The position numbers and the translations under genes are program-made. This document shows positions 3,865-57,578 of a stretch of DNA of 64,000 bases, piece after piece. This stretch comes from Loktanella sp. 3ANDIMAR09 (GTDB lineage Bacteria > Pseudomonadota > Alphaproteobacteria > Rhodobacterales > Rhodobacteraceae). Each line of letters begins with the position of its first letter. Within the stretch, counting starts at the first letter, position 1. Below the pieces are notes generated by a model. That model saw nothing but the letters and a program-made list of their open reading frames with translations, was not told the DNA's origin and did not search any database. The stretch lies in NCBI RefSeq assembly GCF_001420005.1, contig NZ_LJAK01000006.1, positions 1 through 64,000 on the forward strand, in the 5' to 3' direction.

Positions 3865-6800
3865 ATGCATCTGTTGGCCGCCAGCGCCGGCGCGATATCC
3901 GACGGGACGGAACCCGTCGATCTGGGCCAGACACCCGCCGATGTGGTAGTAATCTCGGCCGCCGATACCGAACTGGCCGCCCTGTCAGAGGCGCGCGCCG
4001 CAATGGACGCGCCCCCCGGCCTGCGGCTGGCCAGCCTCATGCATCTGCAACACCCGATGTCGGTCGACCTGCATCTGGACGCCTGTGCCACGAAATCGCG
4101 GCTGGTCATCGCCCGCGTGCTGGGCGGTGCTGGCTACTGGCGCTACGGCTTGACGCAATACGCAGCCCAGCTGCGGACCGCTGGCGTACCCGTCGCGTTC
4201 CTGCCCGGTGACGACCGAGAGGATCCTGATCTGCGCGGCCTCAGCACCGTCACCGACGCCGACTACGACGCATTATGGAGCTACCTTGTCGAAGGCGGCC
4301 CGCAGAACGCCGTCCGCTTTCTGGCCTGTGCGAAATCCATCGTGGACGACACCGACCGCCCTGCCCCCGCCAGCCCGCTGCTGCGGGCGGGTGTCTACTG
4401 GCCCGGCGCGGGCGTGGCCGACCTGACTGCGACGCAAGAGGACTGGACCGACGGCGCACCGGTCGTGCCCATCGTGTTCTACCGGGCGCTGGTCCAGGGC
4501 GGCGGGCTTGCCCCGATCAACCGCCTTGTACGCGCATTGTCACGCAAGGGGCTGAACCCGCTGCCCGTCTTCGTGGCGTCGCTCAAGGACCCGCTGTCCA
4601 CGGCCACCTTGACGGAACTTTTCCGACAGGCCCCGCCATCGGTGATCCTGAACGCCACCGCCTTTGCCGTCGGCAGCCCGCATGACGGCGACGACAGCCC
4701 CGACAACCCACTGGCCGGTCCGCAGGCACAAGGCGCGCCCGTGTTCCAGGTCGTGTTGTCAGGCGGCACCGAACAGGCCTGGCGCGACAGTCCCCAGGGG
4801 TTGTCCGCCCGCGACATCGCCATGAACGTTGCCCTGCCAGAGGTCGATGGACGCATCCTGACGCGGGCCATCAGCTTCAAGGGCGAGGCCTTCTTTGACG
4901 CCGCCACCGAATGTCCCATCGCCACATATCAGGCACAGGGTGACCGGATCACATGGGTGGCCGATCTTGTTGCCAACTGGACCGGGCTTCAGCGCACCCC
5001 CGCAGCCCAACGCAAGGTCGCCCTGATCCTCGCCAATTACCCCAACAAGGACGGCCGCCTTGCCAATGGTGTCGGCCTCGACACCCCCGCCGCCACGGTC
5101 CACGCACTGGAACTGATGCAATCCGCCGGCTACGCGACGACCCCGCCCGCGAACGCACAGGCGCTGATGGACCAGATGATGGCGGGGCCCACCAACTGGC
5201 TGACCGACCGCGCGTACACCGGCGGCGGTGAATTCCTGCCGCTCGACATCTACCGGCAGTACTTCGACGCCCTCCCCTGGGAGGTCCGCGAACAGATCAC
5301 CACGCGCTGGGGCGCACCTGACGACGACCCCTTCATCATCTTGCCGGAAATACTCCCGGCGGAGGCATCCACCCCATCCACCGGCGCAGGTTTCAAACTG
5401 TCGATCCACCGGTTCGGCAATGCGGTCGTGGGCCTGCAACCCGCGCGCGGTTACAACATCGACCCCACAGAGACCTATCATTCCCCCGACCTTGTGCCGC
5501 CACACAACTACCTGGCCTTCTATTTCTGGCTGCGCCACCATTGGGGTGCGCATGCGCTGGTCCACATGGGCAAACACGGCAACCTCGAATGGCTGCCGGG
5601 CAAGGCGCTGGCCCTCTCCGGCACCTGCTGGCCAGAAGTCACGCTGGGCCCGGTGCCACATATCTATCCCTTCATCGTCAATGACCCTGGCGAAGGCACG
5701 CAGGCCAAACGCCGCGCGGCGGCTGTCATCATCGACCACCTGACACCGCCCCTGACCCGCGCAGAAAGCTATGGCCCCATGCGCGATCTCGAGGCGCTGG
5801 TCGACGAATATTACGAGGCCGCAGGCCTCGATCCCCGCCGTCTCGAACACCTGCGCCGCGAAATTCTGTCCCTGTCAGAGGTCACGGGCCTCAGCCAGGA
5901 TGCAGGTTTCAAGGGCGAGGCCGAAGGCGATCTGGCAAAACTCGACGCCTACCTGTGCGAGTTGAAAGAGGCACAGATCCGCGACGGATTGCATGTCTTT
6001 GGAGCCAGCCCCACGGGCCAGCAGGAAATCGACCTCAGCATCGCGCTGGCCCGCGTCCCCCGCGGTGATGGCAAGGGCGCGAATGCCTCGCTCCTGCGTG
6101 CGCTCGCGCTGGATTTCGGCTTGTCCATCGACCCGCTGGACTGCGACCTTGCTGCCCCCGCACCCGAAAAACCCGGCGCACTTGGCGACGCAAGGGGCTG
6201 GCGGACCAATGGCGATACGGTCGAGCGGCTCGAGGCGCTGTCACAAGACCTTTTGACAAGCGGCACTCTTCCCGAAACGCTGCGCGCCGCCTCAGGGGAC
6301 GGTGGGCGGGGCGCCTTGGGCGTCAGCCCAACAGCGTCGGCCGCCGTCATCGCGGAAATCGAGGCGCGGATCCGCCCTGCTGTCGCTGCCTGTGGCCCGG
6401 ACGAGGGGGCGGCCCTGCTGCGGGCCCTGGATGGCCGCGCGATCCTGCCGGGGCCATCGGGCGCGCCGACACGCGGCCGACTGGATACCCTGCCGACAGG
6501 GCGCAACTTCTATTCCGTCGACAGCCGTGCGGTGCCGACACCGACCGCCTGGGCGCTTGGCTGGAAATCCGCCAACCTGCTGATCGACACGCATTTGCAA
6601 ACCCACGGGGATTGGCCGCGCAGCCTGCTGCTGACCGCATGGGGTACTGCCAACATGCGCACGGGTGGCGACGACATCGCGCAGGCGCTGGCGTTGATGG
6701 GGTGCAAGCCGACGTGGGACGCTGCCAATCGCCGCGTGACGGGGTTCGAGGTGATCCCGTCATCTGCCCTCGGTCGTCCGCGCGTCGACGTAACCCTGCG

Positions 6801-9625: not shown

Positions 9626-10249
9626 ATGCAGCTGACCAAGGCACACGCAGCCGCATTGCAAGACATCCTGACATGGCGCCGCGACGTGCGCCATTTCCGC
9701 AGCGATCCGATCGCGCCAGACCGGATCGCGCGCCTGCGCGCGGCGATGGACCTTGCGCCATCGGTCGGCAATGCCCGCCCTTGGCGCGTGATGCAGGTGG
9801 ACACGCCTGCAACCCGCGCCGCGGTGATCGCCAATTTCGAACGTGCCAACGCCGCCGCGGCCAGGGCCTATACCGACGACCGACGACGCGCCTATGACGC
9901 CCTCAAACTCGCGGGCCTGCGCGAAGCACCGGTCCACCTCGCCGTCTTCACGGCCGACAACCCGGACGAGGGACACGGCCTGGGTCGCCAGACCATGCCG
10001 GAGATGCTCAGCTTTTCCACGGTCTGCGCGATCCACAGCCTCTGGCTGGCGGCCCGTGCGGACAACATCGGCACAGGCTGGGTCTCGATCCTCGACCCCG
10101 TTGCGTTGCAGGCCACGCTGGCGGCCCCGCCACACTGGCAGCTGACAGCCTATCTCTGCCTCGGCCTGCCTGCCCGATCGGACGACACACCGCTTTTGCA
10201 TCGCACCGACTGGCAGGAAAACACCGCAACCCCCTGGCAGGTGGTCTAG
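9626..10249 (+). CDS. bluB: 5,6-dimethylbenzimidazole synthase BluB
   Basis: 207 residues of the nitroreductase fold. The RRDVRHFRSDPI block (about residues 18-29) and SVGNARPWRV (about 46-55), with EMLSFSTVCAIHSLWLAARADNIGTGWV further on, match BluB, not ordinary nitroreductases. BluB breaks reduced FMN with O2 to give the lower ligand of B12. With CobN and CobO beside it, the cell should make complete cobalamin aerobically. It begins 6 nt after cobO and is the last gene of the run; repeat R1A follows at once. Confidence 0.95.
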   Translation: MQLTKAHAAALQDILTWRRDVRHFRSDPIAPDRIARLRAAMDLAPSVGNARPWRVMQVDTPATRAAVIANFERANAAAARAYTDDRRRAYDALKLAGLREAPVHLAVFTADNPDEGHGLGRQTMPEMLSFSTVCAIHSLWLAARADNIGTGWVSILDPVALQATLAAPPHWQLTAYLCLGLPARSDDTPLLHRTDWQENTATPWQVV

Positions 10250-10250
10250 A

Positions 10251-10327
10251 CTTCTTCTGGGCAAAAATATCCCGGGGGAGGCGCAGCCGGGGGCAGCGCC
10301 CCCACCCGAATTTTCGCGAAAATTCGG
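10251..10327 (+). repeat. R1 dispersed intergenic repeat, copy A (two hairpins)
   Basis: Begins CTTCTTCTGGGCAAAAATAT and continues CCCGGGGGAGGC. It then has a GGGGGC-AGC-GCCCCC hairpin and ends with a perfect 22-bp palindrome at 10306-10327, built on CCGAATTTTCG and its complement. A second copy with the same order is at 57497-57578. It fills the whole gap between bluB and the convergent TPP-enzyme gene and abuts the latter's stop codon, so it may act as a two-way terminator. Confidence 0.85.
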
Positions 10328-11962
10328 CTACCCGCCCAGTGATGCGCCGGGTGCCAGAACAGCAGGGTCCAGCACGCATTCGATGATCGCGACGGTCCCG
10401 GCGGCGCGCGCCGCAGCAAAGGCCTCGGCGAACTGGTCCTGCGTCCTGACCGTCGCTCCGAACCCGCCATAGGCGCGGGCCAGGGCCGCGTAGTCCGGAT
10501 TGGCCAGCACGGTGCCGGACACACGCCCGGGATAATGCCGTTCCTGGTGCATTCGGATGGTGCCGTAGCGCCCGTTGTTCATCACGATCACGATCGGGGT
10601 GGCGCCGTGCTGAACGGCGGTCGACATCTCGTTGCAGGTCATCTGGAAACACCCGTCCCCCGCAAGGCAGACCACCGGCAGGTCCGGATGCCGCAACGAC
10701 GCGGCAATCGCTGCGGGAAATCCATAACCCATCGACCCCGACGTCGGTGCCAACTGTGTCCCGTACTGCTTGTAGCTGAAATAGCGGTGCAGCCAGGCCG
10801 CGTAGTTGCCCGCCCCATTGGTCAGGATTGCATCGCTTGGCAGATGATCGGACAGCCAACGGATGATCTGCTCTTGCTTGACCGCGCCCGGCGTCTCGCG
10901 CGGCCTGATCCAGTCCAGGTAATCCGCACGCGCGGCGGCGGTCCACGCAGACCAGCGCGGTGCCGCGACAGGCTGTGCGACCAGTCCCGCCAGCGTCATG
11001 ATCGCATGGTCCGCCGGGCAGACCGCCTGTGCGTCCGTACCAAAGACGCGTCCGATCTCGTCCGCATCGGCGTGGATGTGCAGGATCGTCCTGGCCGGTG
11101 CTGCGGGATCGACCAGCGTATAGCCCTGCGTTTCGATATCACCGAACCGCGTTCCCAGCAGCAGCAGGCAATCCGCATCCCGAACCCGTTGCGCCAGCGC
11201 AGGGTTGACCCCGACATTCAGGTCACCGGCAAAACAATCGTGCCGGTTGTCCATGTAATCCTGCCTGCGAAAACTGGTCACGACGGGCACGCCCGTGGCC
11301 GTGGCAAAGCGTTCCAGCGCCTGTTGCGCGGCCCTTGACCAATGCGGACCACCCACCACGACCAGGGGACGCGCGGATTGCATCAGCTCATCCAGCACGC
11401 GTGGCAGCGCAGCCACATCAGCCGCAGGCTGCGCAACAACCCCTTGGAAATCGGGCACATCCGACGCGGCACTCAGCATGTTTTCGGGCAGGGCGAGCAC
11501 CACGGGACCGGGTCTGCCGGACTGTGCCAGCCGAAAGGCGCGCACGATGTATTCCGGCAAGCGATCCGTATCGTCCACCTGGGCCACCCATTTCGCCAGC
11601 CCGCCGAACATCTGTTTGTAATCGACCTCCTGGAACGTTTCGCGGTCCGTGTGGCGATTGTCGATCTGGCCTATGAACAGCACCATCGGCGTGCTGTCCT
11701 GCATCGCCACATGCACGCCCGCGCTGGCGTTGCAGGCCCCCGGCCCGCGGGTGACGAAACACACGCCCGGCCTGCCGGTCAGCTTGCCGTGCGCCTCAGC
11801 CATCATCGCAGCCCCGCCTTCGTGACGGCAGACGACGTTCTGGATACCGCTGTCAAACAGCCCATCCAACGCCGCGAGAAAGCTTTCGCCCGGCACCGAG
11901 AACACACGGTCCACCCCCAGTTTCACCAGCTGATCGGACAGAATCTTACCGCCGTGTCTCAT
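10328..11962 (-). CDS. Thiamine-diphosphate-dependent enzyme, acetolactate-synthase-like
   Basis: 544 residues with the three-domain plan of the ALS/benzoylformate-decarboxylase group. N-terminal PYR domain: the VPGESFLAALD and CRHEGGAAMMAEAHGKL blocks include the activating Glu. A central domain follows (VVGGPHWSRAAQQAL). The C-terminal PP domain has the TPP motif GDGCFQMTCNEMSTA ending in MNNGRYG. The substrate cannot be fixed: it lacks an adjacent ilvH-type small subunit, so a catabolic ALS-like or sulfo/oxalyl-type enzyme is as likely as branched-chain synthesis. The start MRHGGK at 11962 is preferred because AAAGGAAT lies 7 nt upstream. It is divergent from the FMN reductase. Confidence 0.85.
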   Translation of the reverse strand: MRHGGKILSDQLVKLGVDRVFSVPGESFLAALDGLFDSGIQNVVCRHEGGAAMMAEAHGKLTGRPGVCFVTRGPGACNASAGVHVAMQDSTPMVLFIGQIDNRHTDRETFQEVDYKQMFGGLAKWVAQVDDTDRLPEYIVRAFRLAQSGRPGPVVLALPENMLSAASDVPDFQGVVAQPAADVAALPRVLDELMQSARPLVVVGGPHWSRAAQQALERFATATGVPVVTSFRRQDYMDNRHDCFAGDLNVGVNPALAQRVRDADCLLLLGTRFGDIETQGYTLVDPAAPARTILHIHADADEIGRVFGTDAQAVCPADHAIMTLAGLVAQPVAAPRWSAWTAAARADYLDWIRPRETPGAVKQEQIIRWLSDHLPSDAILTNGAGNYAAWLHRYFSYKQYGTQLAPTSGSMGYGFPAAIAASLRHPDLPVVCLAGDGCFQMTCNEMSTAVQHGATPIVIVMNNGRYGTIRMHQERHYPGRVSGTVLANPDYAALARAYGGFGATVRTQDQFAEAFAAARAAGTVAIIECVLDPAVLAPGASLGG

Positions 11963-40177: not shown

Positions 40178-40771
40178 TTGGCTTTGAAAACTTCAACGCT
40201 GATCTATACGGGCGCTGCCTGCCTTGCAATCGCAGTGCTGACCGTCGGCTCCGGCGTTCTGACGCCCACCCCTGCCCCCTCCCCCGTGGACACCCTCGCA
40301 CTGCAGGACCTCGCGGACGGCGACATGCGCAAACTGACGTGGTCCGGCCCCGTCCCGCTGCCCGATGTCGCCTTTTTGGCCGAAGACGGCACGCAGGCCA
40401 GCCTGTCCGATTATAAAGGCAAACCAGTCGTGGTGAATTTCTGGGCCACCTGGTGCGCGCCCTGCCGGGTGGAAATGCCGCATCTGTCCGCCCTCCAGAC
40501 AGCCCTGGGGGACGAGGCCGCGGTTCTGACCGTCGCCACCGGGCGCAACGACCCGGCAGGCATCGACCGGTTTTTCACCGAAATCGGCGTGACCAATCTG
40601 CCAAAGGCGACGGACGCCAATCAATCCATGGCACGCGCCTTTGGCGTGCTGGGCCTGCCGGCGACCATCATCGTGGACGCACAGGGGCAGGAAATCGCCC
40701 GCCTGCTGGGCGAGGCTGACTGGTCCAGCGACAGCGCGCAAAATATCATCCGCGCCCTTGCTGCCGACTGA
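40178..40771 (+). CDS. TlpA-like membrane-anchored thioredoxin
   Basis: 197 residues. It starts with TTG, supported by a strong AAAAAGGAG seven nt upstream. An N-terminal hydrophobic helix (about 8-28) anchors it to the inner membrane. The thioredoxin domain (about 60-195) has the active site [15 protein letters not shown] (W-C-A-P-C) and the cis-Pro in GLPATIIVD. It should be a periplasmic thiol reductase, perhaps for cytochrome c maturation. Its position beside argH is usual in Rhodobacterales. Confidence 0.92.
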
Positions 40772-40785
40772 ACACCGCGCGCCCG

Positions 40786-40818
40786 CATCATCTTGCCCCA
40801 AATACTCCCGCCGGAGGC
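40786..40818 (+). repeat. R1 dispersed intergenic repeat, copy C (short form)
   Basis: CATCATCTTGCCCCAAATAC followed by TCCCGCCGGAGGC; it lacks the G-run hairpin and palindrome of copies A and B. It lies in the gap between the convergent TlpA and Kef-type genes. It is the closest relative of the unit found inside cobN (30 of 33 identical). Confidence 0.8.
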
Positions 40819-40845: not shown

Positions 40846-42759
40846 TTATTCGTCGCGCGGTTGCAGCGCCATGCCCGTGGTGCGCACGATTTCGTCCACA
40901 TCGTCACCCCGCGCCGCCATGCGGGATTTCAACTGACCGAAACTCGCCCCGCCCTCGGCAAAGATCTGATCCTGCAACGCGCGCAATGCGCGGGCCTTTT
41001 CGACATATGCCGGGTCCATCGGGTTACCCGCGACCTGCTGGAACACCGGGGCCATCGCGATCAACAGCGCGCGGTCGTCGTCGACATAGCCGCTGGTCAT
41101 CCGGTCGGCGACATCCGGCGCAGTGCCCATCGCAACCAGCGCCGACCGCCCCGTGCGCACGGCGCTGTCGAAGGTCTCGCGGATGATGTCACGGCATCCG
41201 GCGGCGTATAATTCATAGACATGATGCCGGTCGCGCGCGCGGGCGACGATATGCACATGAGGATAGTTTTCGTGGACATGCGCCACGATCCGCGTGGCAC
41301 TGTCGCGGTCGTCGATGGCCACCACCAGCATCCGTGCGTCGCGAATACCTGCGGCCTCCAGCATCTCGGGGCGGCTGGCATCCCCGAAATAGGCCCGCAT
41401 CCCAAAGACGCGCAGCATGTCCAGTTGCCGCGCGCTGTAGTCGATCACAACCGGATGGATGCCGCCACCCTCCAGGATGCGTTTGACCACCCCCCCGAAC
41501 CGCCCGTGTCCGGCAATGATGACCTGCGGGGCCTCGTCCACGGTATCCGCCGCGCGCAGCTGCTGATCCGCGCGCGGCAGGATCACCCGTTCGTACAGGA
41601 TGAACAGCGCAGGCGTCAGCAGCATCGACAGGGTGACCACCAGCAACAGCGTGTCCGCGATGTCCTGCGGCAAAATACGGCCAGCGGTGACGAATGACAG
41701 CAGGACGAACCCGAATTCGCCCGCCTGCGCCAATCCCAGCGCAAACAGCCAGCGGTCCGTACGTTCCAGACGGAACGCCAGCGCCAGCACCCAAAGCACG
41801 GCACCTTTCAGCAGCAGCAACCCCAACGTCAGTGCAATCACGACCACCGCCTGATCCGCCAGCAGGGCAAAGTTAATGCCAGCGCCCACGGTCATAAAGA
41901 ACAGGCCCAGCAACAGCCCCCGGAACGGATCGATATCGGCCTCCAGCTCGTGGCGCCAATCGCTGCCCGCCAGCACCACACCCGCGATAAAGGTGCCCAG
42001 CGCAGGCGACAGCCCGACCAGCGTCATCAACAGCGCGATCCCCACGACCATCATCAAGGCCGCGGCGACGAACAATTCGCGCATGTCCGCCTTGGCGATG
42101 AACCGAAAGACCGGGCCGGTCAGCGTATAGCCCACCACGATCACCGCGATCACCGCCAGCGCGTTGACCAATGCCGTCTGCCAGCCCGGCAGCCCCGCAA
42201 CGAGGCTCAGATCATGGGTCGCATCGGCCGCCTGCTCTGCCCCGATCCCCGTGGCCAGCAAGGGCAGCAGCGCCAGCATCGGGATCACCGCAATGTCCTG
42301 CATCAGCAGCACCGAAAACATTGACTGGCCGCCGTCGCTGCGCATCAGACCCTTTTCGTTCAGCGTTTGCAGCACGATGGCGGTGGATGACAACGCCAGC
42401 ACCGCACCGATGGCCAGACCAACCTGCCAGGTCTGCCCCAATGCCATCGCGACCCCGGTCACGGCCAGCATGGTCAGCACCACCTGCCCGCCGCCCAACC
42501 CCAGCAGGCGCGCGCGCATGTCCCACAGCTTGGCCGGGTCAAGCTCGAGCCCAACCAGAAACAGCATCATCACGATCCCGAATTCGGCAAAATGCTGGAT
42601 CGATTCCACATCGACGGCCATCAACCCCAGCAAGGGGCTGATCAGCACTCCGGCGATCAGATAGCCCAGCACGGACCCCAGACCGAACCGCGTCGCGATC
42701 GGCACCGAAGCAACCCCCGCCACGAGGAACACAAAGGCAAGCATCAGCACATCGGTCAT
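40846..42759 (-). CDS. Kef-type K+/H+ antiporter with a C-terminal RCK (TrkA-N) domain
   Basis: 637 residues. About 12-13 membrane helices at 4-390 form a CPA2 exchanger (LVGLELDPAKLW, ALSSTAIVLQ, DIAVIPMLALLP, GLFFMTVGAGINFALL). The cytosolic domain has the nucleotide loop IIAGHGRFGGVVKRIL (about residues 414-429), as in KefB/KefC. It would release K+ in exchange for H+, gated by glutathione adducts or NAD(H) in E. coli relatives. The partner KefF/G-type oxidoreductase is not adjacent. yqgE lies 24 nt upstream on the same strand. Confidence 0.92.
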   Translation of the reverse strand: MTDVLMLAFVFLVAGVASVPIATRFGLGSVLGYLIAGVLISPLLGLMAVDVESIQHFAEFGIVMMLFLVGLELDPAKLWDMRARLLGLGGGQVVLTMLAVTGVAMALGQTWQVGLAIGAVLALSSTAIVLQTLNEKGLMRSDGGQSMFSVLLMQDIAVIPMLALLPLLATGIGAEQAADATHDLSLVAGLPGWQTALVNALAVIAVIVVGYTLTGPVFRFIAKADMRELFVAAALMMVVGIALLMTLVGLSPALGTFIAGVVLAGSDWRHELEADIDPFRGLLLGLFFMTVGAGINFALLADQAVVVIALTLGLLLLKGAVLWVLALAFRLERTDRWLFALGLAQAGEFGFVLLSFVTAGRILPQDIADTLLLVVTLSMLLTPALFILYERVILPRADQQLRAADTVDEAPQVIIAGHGRFGGVVKRILEGGGIHPVVIDYSARQLDMLRVFGMRAYFGDASRPEMLEAAGIRDARMLVVAIDDRDSATRIVAHVHENYPHVHIVARARDRHHVYELYAAGCRDIIRETFDSAVRTGRSALVAMGTAPDVADRMTSGYVDDDRALLIAMAPVFQQVAGNPMDPAYVEKARALRALQDQIFAEGGASFGQLKSRMAARGDDVDEIVRTTGMALQPRDE

Positions 42760-50515: not shown

Positions 50516-50567
50516 GCTGTTTTCGAAATATCCCGGGGGAGTCCGGCACGGACGGGGGCTGGCCCCC
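50516..50567 (+). repeat. R1 dispersed intergenic repeat, copy D (partial)
   Basis: TTTTCGAAATATCCCGGGGG followed by AG and, after a short stretch, a GGGGGC-TGG-CCCCC type hairpin. It lacks the final palindrome. It lies between the divergent uracil-DNA glycosylase and pyrB genes, so it is not simply a terminator here. Confidence 0.65.
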
Positions 50568-57496: not shown

Positions 57497-57578
57497 CTTC
57501 TTCTGGTCAAAAATATCCCCGGGGGAGGTGCACCGCACCGGGGGCAGCGCCCCCATCCGAATTTTCGCGAAAATTCGG
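57497..57578 (+). repeat. R1 dispersed intergenic repeat, copy B (two hairpins)
   Basis: CTTCTTCTGGTCAAAAATAT, then CCCCGGGGGAGG, a GGGGGC-AGC-GCCCCC hairpin, and the same perfect 22-bp palindrome as copy A, here at 57557-57578. It lies between rsmE and the GNAT gene, 8 nt from the rsmE stop and near the ribosome site of the GNAT gene. Confidence 0.85.

Follow-up and report, generated by a model that had tools for sequence, protein, structure and literature searches.

Here, we propose that a loop of CobN, the large subunit of cobaltochelatase, has been repeatedly refilled and emptied, likely from the genome's own dispersed repeat copies; of the explanations considered this is the best overall, and we hold it with good confidence. 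The repeat lies in frame in CobN, recurs there in a single frame and orientation, agrees in dialect with the rest of its genome in seven of eight congeners, and is recognisable as the same DNA by a rare ATA codon and by base pairings that are kept. CobN mostly carries the species' own version of the repeat, so that part of a core protein appears to owe its sequence to a process at the DNA level. The stretch in cobN is a copy of a dispersed, mainly post-gene repeat of about 32 nt. In the mechanism that we envisage, own-genome copies would enter and leave the loop in the one frame tolerated there, the loop going back and forth many times between an empty state and different fillings; the genome's dialect would set the CobN peptide, and a lineage with another intergenic dialect usually has it in CobN too. 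Dispersed copies may reach the loop by insertion or by short-tract conversion, and the intergenic copies may be sites of a candidate trans-acting factor.

The window (the whole stretch of 64,000 nt from Loktanella sp. 3ANDIMAR09 that was analysed) holds the features collected in Table 1. Its genome is referred to as G000, other G-codes being genomes and L-codes loci. Some named relatives share their exact CobN linkers with congeners of G000, which points to Loktanella as the genus of the window. As a preliminary description of this DNA had it, positions 5334-5366 and 40786-40818 match at 30 of 33 bases without gaps, and the stretch is translated in frame within CobN as IILPEILPAEA (residues 491-501). 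Because 5334 still belongs to the TTC codon before it, as its third base, the element in the strict sense spans 5335-5366. A 29-mer allowing 3 mismatches or fewer finds just two places in the window and none in 100 shuffles. The whole-genome count is 26 places, CobN included (26-mer, at most 3 mismatches), with none for the reversed-pattern control, and the CobN copy agrees with L038, L039 (the copy in BchB), L043 and L045 of G000 at 31 of 32 positions each. At gathering scores, the sole Rfam match in the whole window is a cobalamin riboswitch (RF00174; 986-1208, + strand, 103.5 bits) upstream of cobalamin genes, and the repeat matches no curated family. A weak match to a G-rich variant (AAATATCCCGGGGGAGTCC) lies at 50526-50544, and the CobN linkers of L108 and L113 hold a G-rich variant (AAATATCCC..GGGGG...GCAGC..CCCCC) that resembles the element at 57498.

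Table 1. Features of the window that bear on the repeat in CobN.
Feature	Position	Strand	Remarks
cobN, cobaltochelatase large subunit, 1253 aa	3865..7626	+	PF02514, 1216 bits; PDB 9uk9 CobN aligned over 1-1250
CobN linker, residues 490-508 (FIILPEILPAEASTPSTGA)	5332..5388	+	only 5 aa in many repeat-free CobNs
A-type copy inside cobN: left arm ATCATCTTGCC, 2-nt spacer, right core AAATACTCCCGGCGGAGGC	5335..5366	+	
Related element (TTCTTCTGGGCAAAAATATCCCGGGGGAGGCG)	10252..10283	+	lies between two called genes that converge, 9626-10249 (+) and 10328-11962 (-)
Intergenic A-type copy	40787..40818	+	between convergent genes: redoxin-like 40178-40771 (+), Na/H exchanger-like 40846-42759 (-)
D-type arm, differing right part (AAATATCCCCGGGGGAGG...)	57498..57529	+	taken as same superfamily

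The conserved unit measures about 32-39 nt. The form of about 32 nt combines a left arm of about 11 nt, which comes in lineage dialects, with a conserved right part of 19 nt that contains paired positions; the 2-nt spacer separating the two is free. The A-type consensus has the form ATCATCTTGCC-NN-AAATACTCCCGCCGGAGGC, and the other left arms of the genus are CTCGCTTTTT (B), CTCTCTGTYTT (C), TTCTTCTGGTC (D) and TTCATCTGGCC with ATAAAC (E). The right core AAATAYYCCCGCCGGAGGC, at 2 mismatches or fewer, is found in 164 of 198 family genomes with up to 176 copies, reversed controls giving 0 to 3 per genome. Together with the 26 places in G000, this bears out the earlier claim of a dispersed, mainly intergenic element that is carried in frame in a core enzyme.

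Between G000 and G003, orthologous copies differ at 1 of 264 arm positions and 4 of 456 core positions, as against 178 and 192 of 1080 flank positions and 13 of 48 spacer positions; 24 of the 25 G000 places have a partner in this comparison, and its copies were chosen by pattern, with a bias toward conserved ones. As the differences in arms and cores are few relative to those in flanks and spacer, the intergenic copies are taken to be constrained and the spacer to be free. The first pair of positions in the right core is complementary in 150 of 150 copies (shuffled mean 78, maximum 96), being C:G in 101, T:A in 37 and G:C in 12, in a sample of 100 of the 162 listed copies in G139 and 50 of 75 in G026 drawn with a pattern free at two right-core positions; the second pair is G:C in 148 and C:G in 2, the pattern having permitted only G or C. 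CobN copies within 5 mismatches are Watson-Crick at 49 of 50 x:y pairs and 50 of 50 s:z pairs, with pair types changing (L095 and L145, decayed but also within 5 mismatches, are excluded from this count). The two right-core pairs cross, and one simple hairpin does not account for them. Whole units give folding z-scores of 0.11, -0.85 and 0.24, with E-type alone reaching -3.06, such that three of four fold no better than shuffles. The description of the element as palindromic therefore holds for its short right-hand part and fails for whole units. Of the marks of a MITE, terminal inverted repeats were not seen by eye in aligned copies; alignments of filled and empty places are too diverged for showing a target-site duplication, and no insertion machinery was found. 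Same-strand pairs of B- and E-type copies, about 78-80 nt apart, occur at G005:C10:44116/44196, C41:299818/299898 and G001:C26:774410/774488, and at one paired place (L263 versus L045) G000 has a single A-type.

The repeat resides mainly just past gene ends in Rhodobacterales. A set of 125 non-CobN copies, taken from those listed for G000 (25 of 26), G003 (30 of 34), G006 (14 of 15), G005 (31 of 38) and G007 (25 of 52), was placed with a home-made gene caller. Co-directed genes flank 44 copies in one orientation and 40 in the other; 27 copies have convergent neighbours and 2 divergent ones, 10 fall inside a called ORF and 2 at edges. Two of the 125 were located imprecisely, L263 marking a real element next to the intended one and L254 a spurious position about 84 nt away. 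The median distance to the preceding stop codon is 24 and 14.5 nt in the two co-directed orientations. A strand-specific terminator is not favoured, given both orientations relative to genes (44 versus 40) and the shuffle-like folding of three of four units. A phage-borne origin is rejected, as the A-type query had no match among 50,697 phage records; eight plasmid records match, none under a gene in the (incomplete) gene table. In other genera the repeat is also present just before cobN, oriented like the in-gene copy, at L097, L100, L126, L137, L151 and L156: of 7 matches outside the linker (3 mismatches or fewer), at least 6 are followed by the start MHLLAA, which places these in the spacer upstream of the gene.

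In CobN, the linker sits before GFKLS, where it adjoins conserved blocks while lying outside them. An AlphaFold fragment model of residues 301-760 (mean pLDDT 62.9) matches CobN/ChlH chains with poor superposition and was therefore used solely for loop placement; it puts the linker between a helix and a strand, with a mean pLDDT of about 65-67. The link in other CobNs had been described as short, and so it is: repeat-free linkers are mostly of 5 aa (F-V-T-D-A and similar) or, in another group, of a 10-aa form, and in the solved CobN 9uk9 the aligned linker is likewise short.

How often is this loop filled? Our 152 CobN loci, reduced to 136 distinct fragments, comprise the best 80 of 554 confirmed loci in named genomes, 30 + 34 family places, and 8 of 9 congeners, the ninth (G002) having a distant relative only; the family search itself gave matches in 167 of 198 genomes, of which many are more distant and lie outside this set. 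The core occurs within 4 mismatches in 48 of the 136 distinct linkers, in all 48 on the + strand and in one frame, while 13 are decayed, a class assigned by eye, and 75 have no copy. Examples of the five type consensuses have two frames open on the core strand in all cases, yet CobN uses one; the loop tolerates the repeat in a single orientation and frame. Where the repeat's ATA codon encodes Ile, in 36 of the 48 carriers, it is ATA in 36 of 36, compared with 47 of 2162 Ile codons (2.2%) elsewhere in the same 48 genes. Loops do tolerate proline-rich peptides, and a resemblance by chance or by protein-level convergence could be imagined on those grounds, but just 0.7% of random windows drawn from these genes pass the core threshold, and some of the windows overlap true copies. 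With the empty shuffles, the reversed-pattern control and the identity of the DNA at a rare codon also against it, chance similarity was rejected, and we give this reading practically no credence. At the protein level, the repeat-derived peptide is most likely only tolerated, since 75 of 136 linkers do without the repeat and the loop is adjacent to, and not within, conserved blocks.

The repeat had been described as having entered once and then been kept, which does not agree with the linker's history: presence and subfamily change many times, mostly tracking the repeats of the host genome. On a CobN tree built with the linker excluded (FastTree, 667 columns, 51 open forks, long branches L201, L202 and L176 being unsafe), presence requires 19 changes with the 13 decayed linkers left out, and the subfamily label requires 23 among carriers, of which 9 of 48 have an arm that fits no named subfamily and were pooled as one state 'other'. 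When decayed linkers are counted as lacking the repeat, the label needs 24 changes, 18 of them forced by well-supported branches. Exchange of short cobN segments between species could add to these counts. Taken as the whole explanation, with the patchwork of subfamilies reflecting horizontal transfer of alleles and not own-genome copying, such exchange would fit the scattered presence on the tree, and gene transfer agents are known in Rhodobacterales. It is nevertheless improbable in our estimation, as a tree made without the linker still mixes the states and CobN copies mostly match their own genome's dialect, including a base absent from the one exact-pattern copy of a sister genome (L064 and L087, below).

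Filling of the loop goes with the number of copies in the genome. Of 64 family genomes with both data, 3 were set aside for their decayed linkers; the median number of copies is 55 in carriers (n=11) and 9.5 in non-carriers (n=50; Mann-Whitney p=4e-4), and all 11 carriers have at least 8 core copies. The same residues in repeat-free genomes, which the preliminary description had set as the outcome speaking against it, were not seen: the 11 zero-copy genomes have non-repeat linkers. Many repeat-rich genomes have a short CobN linker (for example G009 with 85 copies, G163 with 78 and G191 with 77), and the repeat is therefore not sufficient for filling.

The peptide in CobN also follows the genome's version of the repeat. 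Among the congeners, the exception to the dialect match is G008: its CobN copy is decayed and E-like, and E-type is absent from the 11 copies listed for this genome. Compared with the closest listed copy elsewhere in its own genome, the CobN copy agrees at 31 of 32 positions in G000, 32 in G003, 31 in G007 and 32 in G001; in G006 it agrees at 31 of 32 with the BchB copy, in G005 at 30 of 32, the two differences being paired positions, and in G004 more weakly, at 29 of 32 among the own-genome copies listed. The closest filled and empty pair found is L064/L087, two sisters from outside the genus, with 92.9% nucleotide identity over 1800 nt outside the linker, L087 having FIHAD. Five exact-pattern copies of this arm occur in the genome of L064, each with CCG at the pattern-free core position, one of them being the CobN place by coordinates and one other being identical to it over 32 nt; in the genome of L087, the 17 matches include a single exact-pattern copy, which has CCT. 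In G026 the CobN copy has the less common G:C pair, in common with a copy 1.5 kb away, and in G205 its type is the common type in that genome.

This class-wise difference extends to orthologous intergenic places, defined by both flanks and one orientation by design (95 pairs, of which 94 were kept and L207-L254 of G003-G005 dropped; types were called by a similarity threshold, and places may recur across pairs). The dialect is the same in G000-G003 (24 of 24), G000-G006 (12 of 12) and 11 of 13 for G003-G006, the remaining two having a partly changed D arm, as against none of 7 for G000-G005, 6 for G000-G007, 8 for G003-G005 and 5 for G006-G007; intermediate are G003-G007 (2 of 8, both D-type), G005-G007 (1 of 3) and G005-G006 (1 of 4). 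The four pairs with G001 are all at BchB, and one, with G007, is the same. Orthologous places keep the element but often not its arm, and the difference between species is therefore genome-wide and by class.

These data bear on the simplest history, a single old ancestral insertion followed by ordinary drift and loss, in which the subfamilies would be drifted forms. The one frame and orientation in all 48 carriers speaks for it; by itself this fits one ancient insertion with rewriting and loss as well as many insertions. Ordinary drift, however, sits poorly with left arms that differ wholesale while the right core stays, with the invariant ATA codon, and with identities of 30-32 of 32 to own-genome copies in six congeners. 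Such a fossil insertion is disfavoured by the own-genome dialect match, the dialect switches at orthologous places, the ATA codon and the L064/L087 pair, and we consider it quite unlikely.

BchB is a second protein with an in-frame repeat. Here the element lies in the linker between the two domains (PF00148 and PF08369, nitrogenase-like and PCP_red) in the orientation opposite to that in CobN, and the same linker has an A-type copy in G000, G003 and G006 and a B-type copy in G007 and G001 (loci L039, L204, L276, L051; G000:C1:456590). G039 has an E-like copy, and G139 and two others have remnants recognised by eye; the other fetched BchB loci (30 in total, 4 unparsed) have no such match on that strand, L317 having a 4-mismatch match on the other strand. 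In a further gene, for a protein ending ...V RDASGGSI*, the stop codon lies inside the element (L034, L229, L272 and L244, position about 1500), which is A-type in three of the four congeners and B-type in one.

In light of these constrained arms, free spacer and paired bases, what might the intergenic copies be? The pattern suggests that they are putative sites that something reads. One tentative proposal is that the element is the bipartite site of a candidate Rhodobacterales trans-acting factor, whose left-half specificity would shift by lineage, the sites changing in concert and the sequence in CobN and BchB being rewritten to follow. Were this so, selection or drive on DNA, and not on protein, would set that part of CobN and BchB. 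A related possibility, to which we give about the same limited weight, is that the copy in CobN works as a DNA or RNA site in its own right and that, as the left-arm specificity of the factor drifts, all sites, the coding ones included, follow in place by selection. Constraint on intergenic arms and cores around a free spacer is consistent with this, as is pairing that is kept in coding copies while pair types change. Against it, changing most arm bases at many sites by point mutation would need many non-matching intermediates, and one intermediate-looking class only, the D-type arm in G006, was seen; moreover, several CobN copies are decayed and 75 of the linkers have none.

One loop of a core enzyme can be traced through more than 100 genomes as empty, filled or differently filled, in one frame and mostly with the genome's own intergenic version. 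This offers a natural experiment in how proteins gain peptide sequence from non-coding repeats and in how short dispersed sites change in concert where a search for a Y1 transposase found none. The combination of paired positions, constrained arms and a free spacer points to a specific, searchable putative reader.

Among the papers listed in the open-access searches none was on this repeat family, and several known systems invite comparison. REP and REPIN elements are alike in having 20-40 bp, tens to hundreds of copies, and a location near gene ends with near absence between divergent genes; they differ in the GTAG/CGTC tag at one end, which the A-type consensus (24 G000 copies) is without. 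None of the 9 genomes of the genus has a match to the Y1_Tnp/RAYT transposase (PF01797), as against 5 of 14 in the control rings, and a standard REP with RAYT is therefore rejected for this genus. The DNA uptake sequences of Neisseriaceae and Pasteurellaceae also come as species dialects of one short repeat; the present family has far fewer copies.

Among known kinds, the Rickettsia palindromic element (RPE) comes closest, although size and palindromy do not fit. By the passages concerned, it is chiefly from insertions in Rickettsia that bacterial proteins with in-frame repeats are known, the RPEs being short dispersed repeats in frame inside proteins of unrelated function, with a length of about 150 bp in a review passage (PMC10969869, PMC3733652). 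The preliminary description had likened the CobN repeat to these, and the likeness stands as regards copies in frame inside functional proteins (CobN and BchB), whereas it fails as regards size: an RPE unit is about 100-150 bp and palindromic along its length, and the unit here is about 32-39 nt with no overall palindrome. A further difference is that the protein copy here follows the dialect of its genome, a behaviour of which the cited RPE passages make no mention.
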